A DNA stretch of 64,000 bases from Acetivibrio sp. MSJd-27 (GTDB taxonomy: Bacteria > Bacillota > Clostridia > UMGS1840 > HGM11507): contig NZ_JAHLPV010000005.1 of assembly GCF_018918095.1 (NCBI RefSeq), positions 1 to 64,000 of the forward strand, read 5' to 3'. Shown here piece after piece: positions 1-12,431 of the stretch (its first letter is position 1; each line of letters opens with the position of its first letter). The notes under the pieces were generated by a model. The model ran no database searches. It was given only the letters and a program-made list of their open reading frames with translations, and was not told the origin of the DNA. The position numbers were made by a program, and so were the translations under genes.

Positions 1-2
1 AC

Positions 3-98
3 ATACGAAATCAGTTACAGGAGGATATGACAAGTGACCAAATGAGCATGAAAGAATACATAGACCCGTTCACGGGTGAGCAGGTAAAAGAAGGCTAG
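3..98 (+). CDS. C-terminal end of an unidentified ORF entering from the left edge
   Basis: The frame is open from the first bases to a TAG at 96-98 and ends in ...YIDPFTGEQVKEG. An internal ATG at 27-29 directly follows GGAGGAT, so a separate 23-residue peptide is also possible, though the spacing is too short for a good start. I do not recognise the protein. The stop lies just before the structured RNA at 99-240, which fits an insertion next to a gene end. Confidence 0.35.
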   Translation: MRNQLQEDMTSDQMSMKEYIDPFTGEQVKEG

Positions 99-240
99 AA
101 AAAAGCCCCATTAGGGGCAGCCGGTGAAAGCTTCGCGGTTGGCGAACCTTTCGGCGGGCCTATAGGCCCAGCCGGTATCAAGCCCTAAGGGGGCAGTGCA
201 TACCACCGGCACGACCGGTGGTTATGATTTTATTTAAATG
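99..240 (+). ncRNA. Multi-hairpin structured RNA, candidate HEARO / IscB omega-RNA-like scaffold
   Basis: The stretch is GC-rich and packed with short perfect stems: GCCCC/GGGGC at 105-118, GGTT/AACC at 137-148, GGGCC/GGCCC at 156-169, GCCC/GGGGC around 182-193 and an 8-bp stem ACCACCGG/CCGGTGGT at 202-222. Then comes TTATGATTTTATTTAAATG. This chain of small GC hairpins resembles, from memory, HEARO RNAs, the omega-RNAs of IscB nucleases, where the guide lies at the 5' end and the nuclease gene follows. Here no iscB or tnpB reading frame follows; the next genes are two tiny ORFs on the other strand. Boundaries and strand are inferred. It could be an orphan or decayed element, or another structured repeat. 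Confidence 0.45.
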
Positions 241-343
241 CCTGCCGCGTAATAAAAACGTATAGGAATAGCTGTCTTATGATTGTTCTGTGAAGGAAAA
301 CAAGTATCAATGGAATTGTGGCATAAAAACTCTGATTTTCTGA

Positions 344-364
344 AATATCGTTGCAAACGATATT
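344..364 (-). terminator. Perfect 9-bp inverted repeat downstream of the small minus-strand genes
   Basis: AATATCGTT and AACGATATT are separated by 3 nt, just beyond the stop of the 44-residue ORF. The T-run expected on the minus strand is poor, so it may be a weak terminator or a protein-binding palindrome. Confidence 0.35.
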
Positions 365-386
365 GGATCCGTATATACTTTACGCC

Positions 387-521
387 TTATACATCATTGT
401 TTTTTATGGATTGCTTTTTTGCATTGGGATTATGATTATGATTTTCCTCTGTAAGAGGTGTTTGCCCTTTGGACTTGCGCTTTCTGGCCTTTTTATTGTC
501 CGGTTGACTGTCCTTTGGCAT
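387..521 (-). CDS. Small highly charged protein, 44 aa, function unknown
   Basis: The ATG at 521 is preceded by a textbook ribosome binding site (AGGAGG, 6 nt upstream), and the frame gives a 44-residue Lys/Asn/Gln-rich protein without hydrophobic segments, starting MPKDSQPDNKKARKRKSKGQ. It follows the gene at 533-670 by 11 nt, so the two are surely co-transcribed. Size, charge and the upstream SigG-like promoter suggest a minor spore-associated or nucleic-acid-binding protein, but I recognise no named family. Overlapping plus-strand hydrophobic ORFs in this stretch lack ribosome binding sites. Confidence 0.65.
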   Translation of the reverse strand: MPKDSQPDNKKARKRKSKGQTPLTEENHNHNPNAKKQSIKNNDV

Positions 522-532
522 AAAAATTCCTC

Positions 533-670
533 CTATCTTTTGGTGTTTGGTCCCAGAGCTTCTTTTTTTGCATTGTGATGCTCATTTTGATTTTTTACTT
601 CACCGCTTGTTTCTTGATTATTCTTTTGCAGGCTTACCTGGCTGTCATAGAGAGGTTTCTTTTTCAACAC
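533..670 (-). CDS. Small charged protein, 45 aa, possible spore-associated protein
   Basis: AAGGAG lies 6 nt before a GTG start at 670; an ATG at 676 abuts the ribosome binding site and is too close. The protein starts MLKKKPLYDSQVSLQKNNQ and ends HNAKKEALGPNTKR, an ending that recalls short clostridial proteins with a GPNT tail, but I cannot name the family with certainty. It heads a two-gene unit with the 44-aa ORF at 387-521. A SigG-like promoter sits 49 nt upstream, pointing to expression in the forespore. Confidence 0.6.
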   Translation of the reverse strand: MLKKKPLYDSQVSLQKNNQETSGEVKNQNEHHNAKKEALGPNTKR

Positions 671-718
671 AGACATCTCCTTTCCTTTTTGAAATCTGTC
701 ACTTCGCTGTCCTATCCA

Positions 719-748
719 TAGTATTGGAAGACAACAGTGATTTATTCA
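719..748 (-). promoter_or_regulatory. SigG-like promoter for the two small basic-protein genes
   Basis: Read on the minus strand, TGAATA (748-743) is followed by 17 nt and then AATACTA (725-719). This is one mismatch from the TGAATA-N17-CATACTA type recognised by the forespore factors SigF/SigG of endospore formers. The start codon of the first small gene lies about 49 nt downstream. Confidence 0.45.
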
Positions 749-824
749 CAAAAACATAGAAAAATACCGCCTTTCCAAGTTTTAACGATTAAGCGCAAAA
801 TATTTAATTATTTTGGAAAATCTA

Positions 825-853
825 TTGATTTTGACGGATATTTGATGTATAAT
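825..853 (+). promoter_or_regulatory. SigA promoter of the polyamine operon
   Basis: TTGATT (825-830), a 17-nt spacer and a perfect TATAAT (848-853). Transcription would begin near 860, giving a leader of about 370 nt before the speD start codon. Confidence 0.7.
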
Positions 854-859
854 CCGTTG

Positions 860-1229
860 TGGAAGGTTTTCTGAAAATGATTAGGGCCTTTTGCCGTCTT
901 AAAATGCAGGCGGATTAAGAATTTTTTGACCATTTTGTATATTTAGGAAGATTCCTGTACAAAATATATAGCCATGCGGACAGCTGGGTCAAATGCCGAC
1001 ACTGGCAACTTTTGTTGCCTTATTGATTGAGCGAATGCTCAAATTTCATAGAGAAATCACACTTGTGAATCAATCAATAAGAGTAGTCAAAGGTATTCTT
1101 ATGGACTCTAATCTTAAAATCTTCGGCCACCGATTTATAGATTTTGAAACTCAAGTGTATTTTAGGTTGATACCTGAAAAGGCATTTGAGTTTTTTTTAT
1201 CCAGACAAACCAGGGGAAAGAGTGATGAA
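860..1229 (+). promoter_or_regulatory. Structured 5' leader with terminator, candidate riboswitch/attenuator of the polyamine operon
   Basis: Several helices are visible. ATTTTGT/ACAAAAT (932-938/959-965) encloses AGGAA/TTCCT. GCCA/TGGC (971-974/1003-1006) encloses CGG/CCG. GGCAAC/GTTGCC is at 1004-1019. A perfect 11-bp stem, TTATTGATTGA/TCAATCAATAA (1020-1030/1070-1080), closes a junction with hairpins GC/GC (1031-1038), ATTTC/GAAAT (1043-1057) and CAC/GTG (1058-1067). The last element is an intrinsic terminator at 1147-1198. ACACTTG (1059-1065), inside the junction, is the exact complement of CAAGTGT (1152-1158) in the terminator's left arm, so junction and terminator could switch. The ligand is unknown; spermidine, putrescine, SAM or arginine are natural guesses. 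I recognise no known riboswitch consensus. Confidence 0.6.
1147..1198 (+). terminator. Intrinsic terminator inside the speD leader (attenuator)
   Basis: AAACTCAAGTG (1147-1157) pairs with CATTTGAGTTT (1183-1193) with one G-U pair, enclosing AGGT/ACCT, and leads into a run of eight T (1191-1198). It ends 31 nt before the speD ATG and lies within the same transcript, so it must be read through for the operon to be expressed. Confidence 0.8.
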
Positions 1230-1988
1230 ATGGAAGATAAACTGAAATTATATGGGTTTAATAACCTGACGAAATCCTTGAGCTTTAATATTTATGATGT
1301 ATGCTATGCGAAATCGCCCCGGGAACAGAAGGACTATGTGGCTTATATTGATGAGCAGTACAATTCGGACAGACTTACGGATGTTTTATATAAAGTGACG
1401 GAAATGATCGGCGCAAACGTGCTGAATGTATCCAAGCAGGATTATGAGCCGCAGGGGGCAAGCGTTACTTTTCTGATTGCGGAGGAAAGCATGATACCCT
1501 GCGGGGATACGGTGGTAGCGCATCTGGACAAAAGTCACGTGACGGTACACACTTATCCGGAATACCATCCGGACACTTCGATTGCAACTTTTCGAGTGGA
1601 TATCGACGTGGCAACTTGCGGGGAGATCACGCCTCTTTCCACACTGGATTTTCTGATCGGCAGCTTTGATTCGGACATCATCACCATGGATTACCGGGTG
1701 CGGGGCTTTACCCGCGATATTTCGGGCAGGAAGCTTTTTATGGATCACAAAATGACTTCCATTCAGGATTATATTGATGAAAAAACGCTGGAGCACTACG
1801 ATGCCATTGACATCAATGTTTACCAGTCCAATATTTATCATACAAAGATGCTGATCAAGGAAATTGACTTGCAGAACTATCTGTTTAATACCGATGTTTA
1901 TGAAATTCCGCCCAAAACCAGACTGAACATCATGAACAATCTGCACAGCGAAATGATTGAAATATTCAGCGGGAAGAATATCTATTAG
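1230..1988 (+). CDS. speD: S-adenosylmethionine decarboxylase proenzyme, E. coli type
   Basis: Pyruvoyl enzyme that decarboxylates SAM to give the aminopropyl donor for SpeE. The 252-aa protein starts [19 protein letters not shown], matching the known N-terminus of the large bacterial (E. coli-like) family of about 264 aa. [10 protein letters not shown] lies near residues 71-80, and the self-cleavage/pyruvoyl Ser is Ser102 in HLDKSH. The in-frame extension back to 993 overlaps the leader and terminator and is not family sequence, so ATG 1230 is chosen; AGGGGAAA lies about 10 nt upstream. First gene of the polyamine operon; speA follows after 14 nt. Confidence 0.93.
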
Positions 1989-2002
1989 AGAGGGGTTAGA
2001 AA

Positions 2003-3451
2003 TTGTCAGGACAGGAAAGAGCTCCTATATTGGAAGCATTGAATCAATTTAAAAAGCAGCGTGTGGTGCCATTTGACGTTCCAGGCCACAAAAGAGGAAA
2101 AGGAAATCCCGAGCTGACCGGATTTTTAGGCGAACAGTGTATGACGGTCGATGTGAATTCCATGAAGTGTCTGGATAACCTCTGCCATCCTGTTTCCGTT
2201 ATCCGCGAAGCGGAGGAGCTGGCAGCGGAGGCGTTTGGGGCGGCTCACGCTTTTTTTATGGTCAACGGAACAACCTCCGCAGTGCAGAGCATGATTCTGT
2301 CTGCCGCAAAGCGGGGAGAAAAGATCATTCTTCCCAGAAATGTGCACCGCAGTGTCATCAATGCGATGATTTTAAATGGCGCAATCCCGGTTTATGTCAA
2401 TCCCGAGACGAATAATGAGCTTGGCATTTCGCTTGGAATGTCCCTGGAGAAGGTGAAAAAAGCGGTTGAGGAAAATCCGGAGGCAAAGGCAATTTTAGTG
2501 AATAATCCCACCTATTATGGAGTTTGCTCCAACATTCGGAAGATTGCGAAGCTGGCGCATGACAATGGGATGCTGCTATTGGCGGACGAGGCGCACGGCA
2601 CACATTTTTATTTCGGGGAAAATCTGCCTGTTCCCGCAATGCGCGCTGGGGCGGATATGGCATCGGTCAGTATGCATAAATCCGGCGGTTCCCTGACACA
2701 GAGTTCCTTCCTTCTGGCAGGAGAACGGGTGAATCCGGATTATATACGGCAGGTGATTAATCTGACGCAGACCACCTCGGGTTCCTATCTGCTTTTATCC
2801 AGCTTGGATATCTCCAGAAAAAATCTTGCGCTGCATGGAAAGGATATCTTTTCCCGTGTGTGTGACATGGCGGAGTATGCCCGGTATGAGATCAATCAGA
2901 TTGGGGATTACTACGCCTATTCCAAAGAGATCATAAACGGGGATTCCATCTATGATTTTGATGTGACAAAGCTGTCAATTCACACGCTGAATGTGGGGCT
3001 GGCGGGGATTGAAGTCTATGATATCCTCCGGGATGACTATGATATCCAGGTGGAGTTCGGCGATCTGGGCAATATCCTTGCCTATGTCTCGGTGGGAGAC
3101 CGCATTCGGGATATTGAGCGGCTGGTCAGTGCTCTGTCGGAAATCCGCCGGCGGTTCAAGCGGGATAAAACCGGTCTGATGAAACAGGAATATCTGAGCC
3201 CTCAGGTTGTGATTACACCTCAGAAGGCTTTTTACAGCGAAAAGGTTTCCCTTCCTCTTAAAGAGAGCGAGGGGCATGTGTGCAGTGAATTTGTGATGTG
3301 CTATCCGCCGGGCATTCCGATTCTGGCGCCGGGGGAACGGATCACCCGCCAGATTCTTGACTATATCGAGTACGCAAAGGAGAAGGGTTGCAGCCTGACC
3401 GGGGCCGAGGATATGAATACGGAACGGTTGAATATCGTAAAGGAGTATTGA
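2003..3451 (+). CDS. speA: Biosynthetic arginine decarboxylase, Orn/Lys/Arg decarboxylase class I (fold type I)
   Basis: PLP enzyme of 482 aa resembling Bacillus subtilis SpeA, converting arginine to agmatine. Visible landmarks are VPGHKRGKG near residue 27, the PLP-contacting DEAHGTH at 195-201 and the Schiff-base Lys226 in SMHKSGGSLTQ. The start is TTG 2003, 7 nt after GAGAGGGG. Lysine or ornithine decarboxylases share this fold, but the speE and agmatinase genes downstream support arginine as substrate. The product feeds agmatinase (4314-5165) or is aminopropylated directly. Confidence 0.85.
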   Translation: MSGQERAPILEALNQFKKQRVVPFDVPGHKRGKGNPELTGFLGEQCMTVDVNSMKCLDNLCHPVSVIREAEELAAEAFGAAHAFFMVNGTTSAVQSMILSAAKRGEKIILPRNVHRSVINAMILNGAIPVYVNPETNNELGISLGMSLEKVKKAVEENPEAKAILVNNPTYYGVCSNIRKIAKLAHDNGMLLLADEAHGTHFYFGENLPVPAMRAGADMASVSMHKSGGSLTQSSFLLAGERVNPDYIRQVINLTQTTSGSYLLLSSLDISRKNLALHGKDIFSRVCDMAEYARYEINQIGDYYAYSKEIINGDSIYDFDVTKLSIHTLNVGLAGIEVYDILRDDYDIQVEFGDLGNILAYVSVGDRIRDIERLVSALSEIRRRFKRDKTGLMKQEYLSPQVVITPQKAFYSEKVSLPLKESEGHVCSEFVMCYPPGIPILAPGERITRQILDYIEYAKEKGCSLTGAEDMNTERLNIVKEY

Positions 3452-3472
3452 GAAAGAAAGGAGAACGTGCAT

Positions 3473-4324
3473 ATGGAATTATGGTTTACTGAGCGGCATA
3501 CCCCCCATGTGGAATTTTCCATCCGGGTGGATCGCCAGCTGTATTCCGGACAAAGTGAATTTCAGAGGATTGATGTGTTTGATTCCAAAGAGTTCGGACG
3601 CTTTCTGACGCTGGACGGCTATATGATGCTCACTGAGAAGGATGAGTTTATCTATCACGAGATGATGGTGCATGTACCCATGGCGGTGCATCCCGACCCG
3701 GAAAAAATTCTGGTGATCGGGGCAGGGGACGGCGGCGTTGTCCGTGAACTTGCAAAATACCAGAAGGTGAATACCATTGATGTGGTGGAGATCGATGAGC
3801 TGGTGGTGGAGGTGTGCAAGATTCATTTGCCTCAGACTGCCTGTGGGTTTATGGATGAGCGGGTTAACCTGCACTTTGAGGACGGTCTGAAGTATATCCG
3901 TTATCACGAAAATGAATATGATCTGATTATTGTGGACTCCACCGATCCCTTTGGACCAGGAGAAGGGTTGTTTACCAAAGAGTTTTACGGCAACTGCTAC
4001 AAGGCGCTGAAAGAGGATGGCATTATGGTGAACCAGCACGAGAGTCCCTTCTATGCGGGGGATGCGCTGGCAATGCAGCGGGCCCACAAGCGGATTGTGG
4101 AATCTTTCCCTATCAGCAAGGTGTATCAGGCACATATTCCGACGTATCCCTCCGGACACTGGCTGTTCGGCTTCTCCTCCAAGAAGTATCATCCGATCCG
4201 TGATTTGGATAAGGCGCGCTGGAATACCTTTGGGTTCAAAACAAGATACTATAACACGAATCTTCACGTGGGTGCTTTTTATCTGCCCAATTATGTAGAG
4301 GAGCTGCTCAGAGATGTTGAATAA
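3473..4324 (+). CDS. speE: Spermidine synthase / aminopropyltransferase
   Basis: Transfers the aminopropyl group of decarboxylated SAM to putrescine or, in some bacteria, agmatine. The 283-aa protein begins MELWFTERHTPHVEFSIRV; it has the nucleotide-binding GAGDGG at residues 83-88 and the diamine-site DSTDPFGPGEGLF at 155-167. ATG 3473 is preferred over GTG 3467 because AAGGAG lies 9 nt upstream. Its last 11 bases overlap speB, so translation is probably coupled. Acceptor specificity cannot be told from sequence alone. Confidence 0.93.
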   Translation: MELWFTERHTPHVEFSIRVDRQLYSGQSEFQRIDVFDSKEFGRFLTLDGYMMLTEKDEFIYHEMMVHVPMAVHPDPEKILVIGAGDGGVVRELAKYQKVNTIDVVEIDELVVEVCKIHLPQTACGFMDERVNLHFEDGLKYIRYHENEYDLIIVDSTDPFGPGEGLFTKEFYGNCYKALKEDGIMVNQHESPFYAGDALAMQRAHKRIVESFPISKVYQAHIPTYPSGHWLFGFSSKKYHPIRDLDKARWNTFGFKTRYYNTNLHVGAFYLPNYVEELLRDVE

Positions 4325-5165
4325 AAACGTGGAAACTTTTATCGGATGTGACTGTGAATACGGGGAGGCAGAAATTGTCCTGTTTGGTGCCCCTTTTGAT
4401 TCCACAACCTCTTTTCGTCCGGGAACCCGGTTTGCCTCCAAGGCGATCCGCTCTGAGTCCTTTGGCTTGGAGACATACAGTCCGTATCAGAACAAGGACT
4501 TGACGGATTATCGGATTTTTGATGCCGGTGATTTGGAACTCTGTTTTGGAAATCCGGAAAAAGCACTTGGGCAGATCGGTGAATTGACAAAGAAGATTCT
4601 GAAGGATGAGAAAATTCCCATGATGATCGGCGGGGAACATTTGGTCACACTTGGAGCATTTCGTCCGGTATTTGAAAAATATCCTGAGGTACACGTGATC
4701 CACTTTGACGCGCATACCGACCTGCGGGAGGAATACTTGGGTGAGATATTGTCCCACGCGTCGGTGATCCGGCGGCTTTGGGATCTGACGGGGGATGGAA
4801 AGATCTTTCAGTTTGGAATCCGCTCCGGTGACCGGAGCGAATTTGTGTGGAGCAAAGGGCACACCGCTCTTCAGAAATTCAATTTCGACGGGCTGGAGGA
4901 AGTGGTTGAAAAGCTGGAGGGAAAGCCGGTCTATTTTACGGTGGATCTGGACGTGATGGATCCTTCGGTGTTTCCGGGAACAGGAACCCCCGAGGCGGGC
5001 GGCGTTTCCTTCCTGGATTTGTTATATGCTGTCTTAAAGGTGGGCAGATTAAATATTGTGGGGCTTGACGTAAACGAACTGAGTCCAGTATATGATCCAA
5101 GCGGAGCATCCACTGCGGTTGCCTGCAAAATCATAAGAGAAATTCTTTTGGGGATACAAAAATAA
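4314..5165 (+). CDS. speB: Agmatinase / ureohydrolase
   Basis: Binuclear manganese hydrolase of 283 aa that removes urea from agmatine (giving putrescine) or from N1-aminopropylagmatine (giving spermidine). Metal ligands are visible in GGEH (106-109), DAHTD (132-136), SHAS (147-150) and DLDVMDP (211-217). It starts inside the end of speE. Which substrate is used depends on whether SpeE prefers putrescine or agmatine; the overlap with speE allows either. Confidence 0.92.
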   Translation: MLNKNVETFIGCDCEYGEAEIVLFGAPFDSTTSFRPGTRFASKAIRSESFGLETYSPYQNKDLTDYRIFDAGDLELCFGNPEKALGQIGELTKKILKDEKIPMMIGGEHLVTLGAFRPVFEKYPEVHVIHFDAHTDLREEYLGEILSHASVIRRLWDLTGDGKIFQFGIRSGDRSEFVWSKGHTALQKFNFDGLEEVVEKLEGKPVYFTVDLDVMDPSVFPGTGTPEAGGVSFLDLLYAVLKVGRLNIVGLDVNELSPVYDPSGASTAVACKIIREILLGIQK

Positions 5166-5189
5166 TGACAGAGAGGTAGGTTGAAACAA

Positions 5190-6389
5190 ATGGGAAAAGT
5201 ATTGGTGATCGGCTGCGGCGGCGTTGCCGGCGTTGCCATCCATAAATGTGTGCAGAATGCGGAAGTGTTCGATGAGGTGGTGATTGCCAGCCGGACAAAA
5301 TCCAAATGCGACGCGTTAAAGGAAAAGCTGTCCGGCGGAAAGGTAAAAATCGAAACCGCCCAGGTGGACGCGGACAACGTGGACGAGCTGATTGCGCTGA
5401 TCGAACGGGTAAAACCGGATGTGGTGCTGAATCTAGCACTTCCTTATCAGGATCTGACGATTATGGACGCCTGTCTGGCAACTAAGGTTCACTATGTGGA
5501 CACCGCCAATTATGAACCGCTGGATACTGCAAAGTTCGAATATAAATGGCAGTGGGCATACCGGGAGAAATTTGAGAAAGCCGGAATTACCGCCCTGCTG
5601 GGAAGCGGCTTCGACCCCGGCGTCACCAGCGTGTTTTCCGCCTATGCCTTAAAGCATCACTTTGACGAGATCAACTATATTGATATTTTGGACTGCAACG
5701 GCGGTGACCACGGCTACCCTTTTGCCACTAACTTCAATCCGGAGATCAATATCCGAGAGGTATCCGCAAAGGGAAGCTATTGGGAAAATGGCAAATGGGT
5801 GGAAACCGAGCCGATGGAAATCAAACGGGTTTACCATTTTGACCAGGTGGGGGAGAAGGATATGTATCTTCTGCACCATGAGGAGATCGAATCTCTGGCC
5901 TTGAACATTCCGGGCATCAAGCGGATTCGCTTCTTTATGACCTTCGGGCAGAGCTATCTGACCCACTTGAAATGCCTGGAAAACGTGGGGATGACTTCGA
6001 TTGAGCCGATTTTGTTCGAGGGGAAAGAGATTGTCCCGCTGCAGTTTTTAAAGGCGGTTCTTCCCGATCCTGCTTCTCTGGGACCTCGGACCGTGGGCAA
6101 GACCAATATCGGATGTATTTTCCGCGGCAAAAAGGATGGAAAGGACAAAACCTATTATCTGTATAATGTATGCGATCATCAGGAGTGCTATAAGGAAGTA
6201 GGATCCCAGGCGGTTTCCTATACCACCGGTGTACCGGCCATGATCGGCGCGATGATGGTTATGACGGGAAAATGGCAAAAGCCCGGCGTTTACAATATGG
6301 AGGAATTTGATCCGGATCCCTTTATGGACGCGCTGAACAAATGGGGACTTCCCTGGAGAGAATCCTTTGATCCCCAGCTGGTAGACTGA
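5190..6389 (+). CDS. Carboxyspermidine / carboxynorspermidine dehydrogenase (saccharopine dehydrogenase family)
   Basis: NADPH enzyme of 399 aa that condenses aspartate semialdehyde with putrescine (or diaminopropane) to a carboxylated triamine. The Rossmann motif IGCGGVAG lies at residues 7-14, and DTANYEP and GSGFDPGVTSVF are typical of this branch of the saccharopine dehydrogenase family. ATG 5190 is preferred over TTG 5181, which abuts the GAGAGGTAGG ribosome binding site. The next gene, nspC, starts 1 nt after its stop, which fixes the pathway assignment better than sequence alone. Confidence 0.88.
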   Translation: MGKVLVIGCGGVAGVAIHKCVQNAEVFDEVVIASRTKSKCDALKEKLSGGKVKIETAQVDADNVDELIALIERVKPDVVLNLALPYQDLTIMDACLATKVHYVDTANYEPLDTAKFEYKWQWAYREKFEKAGITALLGSGFDPGVTSVFSAYALKHHFDEINYIDILDCNGGDHGYPFATNFNPEINIREVSAKGSYWENGKWVETEPMEIKRVYHFDQVGEKDMYLLHHEEIESLALNIPGIKRIRFFMTFGQSYLTHLKCLENVGMTSIEPILFEGKEIVPLQFLKAVLPDPASLGPRTVGKTNIGCIFRGKKDGKDKTYYLYNVCDHQECYKEVGSQAVSYTTGVPAMIGAMMVMTGKWQKPGVYNMEEFDPDPFMDALNKWGLPWRESFDPQLVD

Positions 6390-6390
6390 T

Positions 6391-7518
6391 ATGACGGAAG
6401 CGCTGAAACAGGTACAGACGCCCGCTTATGTAGTGGATCAAGGTTTGCTCACAAAAAATTTAGAGATTTTGAAATCGGTGCAGGATCGGACAGGCTGTCA
6501 CATTCTTCTTGCACAGAAAGCGTTTTCCATGTTCTATTTCTATCCGCTGATCGGACGGTATCTGAAAGGGACAACTGCGAGCTCTTTGTATGAGGCAAAG
6601 CTGGGAAAAGAGGAGATGGGCGGCGAAACGCATATATTTTCTCCAGCCTATTTGGAGAGGGAGTTTGACGAGGTGCTTTCGCTCTGTGATCACATCGTAT
6701 TCAACTCCTTTACCCAGTGGAAAAAATACAAGGAAAAAGCGCTGCAAAGCGGAAAAAGCTGCGGTCTGCGCATCAATCCCGAGTGTTCCACACAGGATCA
6801 CGCTATCTATGATCCCTGTTCGCCCGGTTCCCGGCTGGGGATTCCGGTCTCTGCGTTTGAGGGAGAAAATCTGGATGGAATCGAAGGACTTCATTTCCAT
6901 ACCCTCTGTGAGCAGAACGCGGATGCGCTGCAAAAGACTCTTGAAGCGGTGGAGCAAAAATTCGGCAGGTTTCTGTATCGGATGAAATGGCTGAATTTCG
7001 GCGGCGGACATCACATTACACGGGCGGATTACGATATTGGGACGTTGGTTTCCTGCATTCTTCACATGAAGGAGAAATATGACTTGGAAATCTATCTGGA
7101 GCCCGGGGAAGCGGTGGCGCTGAATGCCGGCTTTCTGGTGACGAGGGTGGAGGATATTGTCCGCAACGGAATGGATATTGCAATTCTGGATACCTCCGCG
7201 GCATGCCATATGCCGGATGTGATTGAGATGCCCTACCGTCCGCCTCTTCTGGATTCCGGGATGCCCGGGGAAAAGGCTTATACTTACCGGCTGGGAGGAC
7301 CTACCTGCCTGGCGGGGGACATCATCGGCGATTACTCCTTTGACCAGCCGCTTCAAATCGGAGACAAGCTGGTGTTCGGCGACATGGCGATCTATTCCAT
7401 GGTCAAAAATAATACCTTTAACGGGGTGAGGCTGCCGGATATCGCGGTAAAGGATGAAATGGGTGTTCACGTGGTGAAACACTTTGGATATCAGGATTTT
7501 AAGGGACGGCTGTCATAG
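6391..7518 (+). CDS. nspC: Carboxynorspermidine/carboxyspermidine decarboxylase
   Basis: Fold type III PLP decarboxylase of 375 aa, last step of the aspartate-semialdehyde route to spermidine or norspermidine. The Schiff-base Lys sits in LLAQKAFSMF near residue 33. LNFGGGHH, LEPGEAVALNAGFLV and GGPTCLAGD are characteristic of NspC and separate it from the related LysA and SpeA2. It starts at the end of the dehydrogenase gene, so the two proteins are probably made together. The stop codon lies at the tip of the operon's terminator hairpin. Confidence 0.92.
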   Translation: MTEALKQVQTPAYVVDQGLLTKNLEILKSVQDRTGCHILLAQKAFSMFYFYPLIGRYLKGTTASSLYEAKLGKEEMGGETHIFSPAYLEREFDEVLSLCDHIVFNSFTQWKKYKEKALQSGKSCGLRINPECSTQDHAIYDPCSPGSRLGIPVSAFEGENLDGIEGLHFHTLCEQNADALQKTLEAVEQKFGRFLYRMKWLNFGGGHHITRADYDIGTLVSCILHMKEKYDLEIYLEPGEAVALNAGFLVTRVEDIVRNGMDIAILDTSAACHMPDVIEMPYRPPLLDSGMPGEKAYTYRLGGPTCLAGDIIGDYSFDQPLQIGDKLVFGDMAIYSMVKNNTFNGVRLPDIAVKDEMGVHVVKHFGYQDFKGRLS

Positions 7519-7528
7519 CCGTCCCTAT
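7502..7528 (+). terminator. Terminator hairpin overlapping the nspC stop codon
   Basis: AGGGACGGCT (7502-7511) and AGCCGTCCCT (7517-7526) form a 10-bp stem with a 5-nt loop; the TAG of nspC (7516-7518) sits at the loop boundary. The T-run is short (TATTT). Confidence 0.6.
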
Positions 7529-7536
7529 TTAATGAC

Positions 7537-8100
7537 TGCTGAATAATCCTGAAATGCAGCTGCATAGCGGTATGCAAGTGTTTCAGAATTGTTCAGGCGC
7601 AAAGTTTTTTGCTTTTATTCCGGTTTTGTATACGATTGCAATAAAAAATAAATGATATGTCAGGGGAGAATTGGGAGAGCAGAAAGCACTGCGCAGTGTA
7701 CTATGCGCTATAATGCGGGCGAACACAGTTCGCCCCTACGGTAGATGGTAAACGGTATACGGTAAACAGTATTTTGTGGGTGCGGTTTGTTCTCTCGGCA
7801 GAACAGTCTAACTGTCAACTGTAAACTCGTTACTTATACGGGCGGATGATATCCGCCCCTACGATGGGAATGCTGGGAAATCTGGTGTAGGGAACGGTCT
7901 TGACCGTTCCGAAAACAGCAGTTCCGGGCTTGCTCCTGCTGTAAAGGATTGTGCATAGGTTGACAATCCCTCCACCGCTGAAGCGGTTCCCCTCCCTTTA
8001 CACAAGGGAGACTGGGGAGGACAGAGGGCAATGCACACTGCACGCTGTTCTATGTGCCGTAATGCGGGCGGAGCAAGCCCCGCCCCTACAGTAGACGAGA
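7537..8100. repeat. Tract of dispersed palindromic repeat units between nspC and the desulfurase gene
   Basis: No gene is seen. The stretch holds a 60-bp imperfect hairpin (CTGAATAATCCTGAAA...TTTCAGAATTGTTCAG, 7540-7595) and three related palindromes each followed by CTAC: GGGCGAA/TTCGCCC (7717-7735), GGGCGGAT/ATCCGCCC (7840-7858) and GGGCGG/CCGCCC (8066-8085). The first and third are preceded by similar text ending AATGCGGGCG. Further stems are GGAACGGT/ACCGTTCC (about 7891-7910), ACCGCTGAAGCGGT and CTCCCTTT/AAGGGAG. Relatives of the CTAC-tailed palindrome recur at 30548 and 38015. Confidence 0.7.
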
Positions 8101-12182: not shown

Positions 12183-12431
12183 CAGAAAACAACAAAAAAT
12201 CCTGCCGTTCACGTGAGTAAGCGCGTTATATAAACCAACATTTTTAATAAGGGAGTCCGTTCTCTGACCTGCGGCTTGCATGCCCCCCGGTTTTATTGCC
12301 GGCTTTAGGGGACCGATAAGCAGTCAGGAGGACACCCACCTGCTTAGGCAGGTTTGTATAAGGCTTATAACGGCTCGGCGGGGATATACATAATGAGATA
12401 AGAATGTTAGGTTCACACCTAGCATTTTTTT
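12183..12431 (+). ncRNA. ssrS: 6S RNA
   Basis: Regulator that binds RNA polymerase holoenzyme by mimicking an open promoter. The two ends pair over a long closing stem: CCTGCCG (12201-12207) with CGGCGGG (12376-12382), GAG with CTC, and GTTATA with TATAAC. The interior contains the large asymmetric bulge region and small GC stems near 12280-12310. A clean promoter stands just upstream and an intrinsic terminator at 12405-12431. tcdA lies downstream, and in Bacillus one 6S gene is also next to the tcdA homologue, which supports the call. The processed 3' end is probably near 12390. Confidence 0.75.
12405..12431 (+). terminator. Terminator of the 6S RNA
   Basis: TGTTAGGT (12405-12412) pairs with ACCTAGCA (12417-12424), tetraloop, followed by seven T (12425-12431). 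From here to 12661 I see no gene; only a short GGGA/TCCC hairpin near 12511-12535 is visible. Confidence 0.8.

Follow-up and report, generated by a model that had tools for sequence, protein, structure and literature searches.

A conserved leader RNA of bacterial polyamine genes as a candidate OFF riboswitch responding to spermidine or a closely related polyamine

The leader RNA at positions 860-1229 of the window (the whole stretch of 64,000 nt from Acetivibrio sp. MSJd-27 that was analysed) heads a six-gene polyamine operon and is probably an OFF riboswitch that acts on transcription and is bound by spermidine or a close polyamine. That it is a real, conserved and switchable leader of polyamine genes is close to certain from the comparison of sequences, and it likely represents a riboswitch class not known before, with spermidine or a closely related polyamine as its ligand. 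The comparison of related leaders showed a conserved element with predicted helices, a mutually exclusive pairing, a terminator, and an exclusive link to genes of polyamine synthesis or import. Two general hallmarks of riboswitches were found, namely a conserved covarying domain ahead of metabolically related genes and an expression platform with exclusive folds. The features of the window copy are collected in Table 1.

Table 1. Features of the leader and the operon in the window
Feature	Position	Strand	Basis or remark
Sigma-70-type promoter, TTGATT-17-TATAAT	825..853	+	consensus match only, 10/12
P1 outer helix, 5' strand	879..922	+	GATTAGGG 879-886 plus TAAGAAT 916-922; in MFE fold
5' domain (RF02440)	926..999	+	50.9 bits; all three helices covary
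3' domain, not in Rfam	1002..1111	+	model R2 match; covariation
Antiterminator 5' strand, ACACTTG (putative)	1059..1065	+	exact complement of 1152-1158; kept across relatives
P1 outer helix, 3' strand	1095..1113	+	ATTCTTA 1095-1101 plus CTCTAATC 1106-1113
Intrinsic terminator	about 1146..1198	+	GAAACTCAAGTG..., -23.4 kcal/mol, T8 at end
speD, S-adenosylmethionine decarboxylase, first operon gene	1230..1988	+	TIGR03331, 400 bits
Orn/Lys/Arg decarboxylase (speA of operon)	2003-3451	+	
speE	3476-4324	+	
speB, agmatinase	4314-5165	+	
Carboxynorspermidine synthase (CANSDH)	5181-6389	+	
nspC	6391-7518	+	

The window leader and the genes behind the element

The first-pass annotation had described a promoter followed by a structured leader of about 370 nt and an intrinsic terminator before speD, and all three were recovered. 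The promoter has TTGATT at 825, a 17-nt spacer and TATAAT at 848-853, in a region where promoter-like sites are no more frequent than in shuffles, and transcription is expected to start near 860. The RNA 860-1229 folds at -110.8 kcal/mol, compared with -82.2 +/- 5.6 kcal/mol in dinucleotide shuffles (z -5.1), and 0 of 100 shuffles were as stable. The 11-bp stem of the same description is present (TTATTGATTGA at 1020-1030 with TCAATCAATAA at 1070-1080), but only 7 bp of it (1020-1026/1074-1080) are conserved; its remainder competes with the conserved hairpin TTGAG/CTCAA at 1027-1031/1038-1042. The outer long-range closing helix is a feature absent from that description. The window copy is a shortened, diverged variant that could be weakened, since it is devoid of the GGTTA/TAACC and GTGC hairpins present in most relatives and also missing from several other leaders. 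Elsewhere in the window, a 6S RNA was identified at 12196-12388 (+; RF00013, 74.8 bits).

The speD gene starts at ATG 1230, after AGGGGAAAG at 1212-1220, and the genes behind it span 2003..7518 on the plus strand. An upstream ATG at 993, in frame with speD, opens a spurious 331-codon ORF (993-1988, +), from which an automatic gene caller could give speD 79 extra codons. Among the matches listed, a polyamine gene was located downstream in 149 of 149 leaders with enough 3' DNA: speA followed 47 of them, potA 39, speD 38, and carboxynorspermidine synthase 25. The BLAST-matched gene was situated on the same strand, its start 213-656 nt from the core (median 327), and profile searches confirmed the potA-type transporters, carboxynorspermidine synthase and speD. 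Behind one element (L056), a potA-potB-potC-potD operon of the potABCD type was found. Eight further loci, in which the 5' domain was missed or the element was interrupted, all had a speA, speD or PotA-like ORF downstream (8/8).

Architecture, covariation and distribution of the element

The element appears to be a large cis-regulatory RNA of about 185-235 nt (~879-1113 in the window), and across ~160 related leaders it is composed of an outer closing helix (P1), the RF02440 domain, and a 3' domain without a counterpart in Rfam. In a side-by-side comparison of leaders, it runs ~140 nt past the RF02440 domain. P1 in the window pairs 879-886 and 916-922 with 1095-1101 and 1106-1113, and its two 5' segments are separated by a hairpin specific to the window, GCCGTC/GGCGG(A) at 893-914; the pair TAAGAAT/ATTCTTA of the window is replaced by GCAAATA/TATTTGC in many relatives. 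In a set of 124 relatives, the 45 nt that precede the RF02440 domain paired with the 3' block at a mean of -15.8 kcal/mol, versus -13.0 +/- 0.2 kcal/mol for permuted partners (0 of 10,000 permutations, which ignore shared ancestry) and about -8 kcal/mol for control segments further upstream. The 3' strand of P1 in relatives has the local hairpin AGAGT...ACTCT as an alternative (helices 9-10 in the covariation count).

The 5' domain is composed of the helix TGACC/GGTCA (927-931/987-991), an inner hairpin (932-965) and the helix AGC/GCT (970-972/983-985), with the conserved letters CGGACAGCTGGGTCAAATGCCGA; the window supplies AGC/GCT where others have GGC/GCC, an example of the covariation in this domain, and a CGG/CCG pseudoknot between invariant letters is possible. 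The 3' domain of the window comprises a hairpin (1004-1009/1014-1019), the junction-closing stem formed by the conserved 7 bp, the hairpin TTGAG/CTCAA, and the helix CATAG/CTTGTG (1047-1051/1062-1067), with the conserved letters AATAAGAGTAGT. Across relatives, it begins with a variable hairpin followed by TTATTGA, TTGAG...CTCAA, ATTTTATAAG and TTGGTTACTTTATAACC, and continues with another variable hairpin, ACTTGTGAAACGG, TCAATAA, and GAGTAGTAAAAGTA...TTGCTATATAGACTCT.

The first-pass annotation had proposed looking for covariation in homologous leaders, and the helices covary well beyond shuffled controls. In 53 diverse leaders, 92.7% of the cells of the proposed structure were standard pairs, and 25 pairs changed on both sides. 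Such changes filled 163 cells; shuffles gave 51.6 +/- 8.4, with 0 of 500 as high, and slid structures never exceeded 66. The 3' domain alone contributed 18 pairs and 64 cells, compared with 22.1 +/- 4.3 in shuffles. The TTATTGA/TCAATAA stem is conserved and near-invariant, hence without a covariation signal.

A covariance model of the 3' domain (R2), built from 52 leaders with the window left out of training, matched the window at 1002-1111 (71.1 bits, E 1.8e-14) and nowhere else in the genome. It also matched in 46 of 382 sampled genomes of the class, nearly always beside RF02440, while RF02440 itself was present in 7 of the 9 genomes from the order to which the window belongs, 40 of 391 in the class sample, and 18 of 398 in the phylum sample. 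A pattern scan of named genomes yielded at least 117 further stretches with the element, the listed matches including Oscillospiraceae, Lachnospiraceae, Paenibacillus, Bacillus, Acidaminococcus, Phascolarctobacterium, Faecalibacterium and a Spirochaete MAG, among others. In all, at least 161 core-bearing loci were collected, of which 157 are distinct, and they extend over many families of Clostridia, plus Bacilli, Negativicutes and the one Spirochaete MAG, in which the element lies on a contig before speD (L089). One copy is carried by a Paenibacillus megaplasmid. Spread by viruses was considered and rejected: the core pattern was not matched in viral contigs, and nothing similar was found in phages.

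Most 5' domains of the relatives are RF02440 members by score. In two leaders, both of speA (L170, L205), this domain is gone, with no Rfam match, and in four others (L169, L187, L195, L204) it is degenerate; all six keep the 3' domain and precede speA or speD. The core is therefore the 3' domain, and these copies hint at a 5' domain that is a separable module. At another locus (L203, G304:C99:37300-38900), an insertion within the variable hairpin, bounded by the inverted repeat CGAACAGTAATAATCCAA / TTGGATTGTTACTGTTCGG, divides the element, which has a PotA-like ORF downstream; an apparent tandem pair in that genome is in fact this one interrupted element. Two further loci (L105, L138) appear to be interrupted in the same way.

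The terminator switch, its candidate ligand and rival readings

Among leaders whose gene was identified, 133 of 134 carry an intrinsic terminator just before that gene (at -8 kcal/mol or more stable); about 16% of shuffled segments have one. The CTTGTG strand of the aptamer, which forms a helix with TATAAG in relatives, is complementary to the left arm of this terminator. A leader's own pairs had a mean of -14.2 kcal/mol versus -11.7 +/- 0.2 kcal/mol for permuted pairs (0 of 10,000 permutations, which take no account of shared ancestry). The excess recurred within the speA, speD and potA groups (0 of 5,000 each, ancestry likewise ignored) and was weak within the carboxynorspermidine-synthase leaders (129 of 5,000). 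No other segment of the element had comparable complementarity to the terminator arm.

The putative pairing of ACACTTG with CAAGTGT (1152-1158, within the left arm of the terminator) would be the local form of this conserved interaction. The first-pass annotation had given its coordinates and its exact complementarity correctly, and the duplex (-12.8 kcal/mol) was better than those of all 100 shuffles of the arm, beyond what chance would give. That annotation had placed ACACTTG in the junction, but the strand is not free there: it overlaps CTTGTG (1062-1067), the 3' strand of the conserved aptamer helix. The regulatory leader with two exclusive folds that the annotation had proposed before the operon is supported, and the arrangement is kept in relatives. 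The two computed folds of the window have energies of -80.5 and -77.1 kcal/mol, a gap of ~3 kcal/mol that does not give the winner in the cell.

In the proposed mechanism, low ligand levels would let the stretch at CTTGTG (in the window, ACACTTG) base-pair with the left arm of the hairpin that follows, the terminator would be blocked, and speD-speA-speE-speB-CANSDH-nspC would be transcribed. When polyamine is plentiful, the folded aptamer would be stabilised and would keep CTTGTG in its own helix, leaving the terminator arm free, so that the terminator would form and transcription would end before speD. We infer that the ligand binds directly and that the switch is of the OFF type. The identity of the ligand is likewise taken from gene context, which points to spermidine, the one product shared by all four contexts, as the first candidate; other polyamines are conceivable. 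Of the ligands suggested earlier (a polyamine, SAM or arginine), a polyamine fits these contexts. SAM, arginine and MTA are poor candidates because the element also precedes potA, which serves polyamine import, and SAM additionally because it precedes carboxynorspermidine synthase, which belongs to a route without SAM.

The ligand reading is to be taken with the caveat that polyamines bind RNA non-specifically and that a protein could read the same RNA. A protein-dependent attenuator, in which a polyamine-responsive RNA-binding protein would read the element and shift the balance between terminator and antiterminator, accords with the comparative evidence, which establishes a conserved switchable RNA and is silent on its reader. 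We nevertheless consider it unlikely: no regulator gene was seen within the window operon, the element is spread over the wide range of lineages described above, and its long invariant stretches outside helices would be typical of metabolite aptamers rather than of short protein sites. Slightly less probable again is a riboswitch for another ligand of the pathway (SAM, decarboxylated SAM, methylthioadenosine, putrescine, agmatine, arginine or carboxyspermidine). The regulated genes do include speD, which uses SAM, and speA, which makes a diamine precursor, but 39 leaders control import and 25 precede an enzyme that uses neither SAM nor decarboxylated SAM. Moreover, no SAM riboswitch family, SAM-I included, matched positions 1-8000 of the window at E values up to 5. 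Putrescine is the least unlikely of these alternatives.

A free trans-acting sRNA, as the name of RF02440 implies, whose terminator would be a mere 3' end, agrees with the cataloguing of the pneumococcal RNA as an sRNA (F59/srn235/SN20). It is very improbable, given that every copy examined is followed directly by a polyamine gene on the same strand, the 149 of 149 noted above being leaders rather than stand-alone small RNA genes, and that an antiterminator pairing would serve no purpose there. Leader-peptide attenuation, in which translation of a uORF from ATG 993 would stall, takes its appeal from the frame that runs through speD in the window and can practically be dismissed, since an ATG occurs at that position in only 63 of 157 leaders, every other frame stops within 47 codons (so that the in-frame ORF is unique to the window and the uORF is not conserved), and 993-1229 has no Pfam match. 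No T-box family match was found in the leader with Rfam.

Comparison with catalogued and published RNAs

In the SAM-I and lysine OFF riboswitches, which attenuate transcription, a strand of an aptamer helix competes for the left arm of the terminator. The element described here, probably itself an OFF riboswitch, shares this competition, whereas its sequence, fold and gene set differ.

The first-pass annotation had recognised no published class, and no published riboswitch class was found; the leader does match RF02440, which is an sRNA family. This entry (SpF59_sRNA, "Streptococcus sRNA SpF59 (ldcC RNA)" in Rfam 15, 54 positions, typed as sRNA) was the sole gathering-level Rfam match in the leader, covering 73 nt at 927-999 with 50.9 bits against a curated cut-off of 37.2. 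What had already been catalogued is hence the 5' part only, and the RF02440 model includes neither P1 nor the 3' domain; nor does it take in the terminator/antiterminator or the polyamine genes. The Rfam label "ldcC RNA" indicates that someone had noted the gene association. No description of the element or its conserved letters was found in the open-access literature, and an earlier report of an 'ldcC RNA' is possible elsewhere. F59 maps to the interval between SP0915 and SP0916 in S. pneumoniae TIGR4, and a later compilation places srn235/F59/Spd_sr49 at 869478-869804; its 327 nt fit the length of a terminated leader. A review lists F59 among the pneumococcal sRNA loci linked to lung fitness, and the accessible literature states no function for the RNA. 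Our comparison suggests that this "sRNA" at a lung-fitness locus is a terminated riboswitch leader.

Two published RNAs of polyamine genes can be set beside the element. The odc1 motif (PMC8632094) is an alphaproteobacterial hairpin-pseudoknot at the start codon with an 11-residue uORF; it is likewise a structured RNA before a polyamine gene, that for ornithine decarboxylase, whereas the window element has a transcription terminator and no conserved uORF. The spermidine riboswitch described by Salvail et al. 2023 (PMC10853860), a rare variant of SAM-I known from 13 examples, has the four-stem SAM-I fold and controls speE, speB, speD and ldcC as a terminator/antiterminator OFF switch. Both RNAs are associated with genes of polyamine biosynthesis and have an expression platform of the terminator type, but the four-stem fold is unlike that of the window leader, which, with no SAM-I match, is not a member of that class. 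Polyamine riboswitches have long been sought, and the discoverers of the SAM-I variant stated that further polyamine classes must exist (PMC10853860). The sole accepted class has these 13 known members; the element has at least 10 times as many, was found here only before polyamine synthesis or import genes, and would offer a polyamine sensor in gut Clostridia. With a little less confidence than in the riboswitch itself, we think it fairly likely that the element constitutes a second natural class of spermidine riboswitch, with an unrelated large two-domain fold, far commoner than the SAM-I variant and providing the main polyamine feedback in many Clostridia and other Bacillota, its 5' domain being a dispensable module and the only part catalogued before, as an unexplained pneumococcal sRNA.
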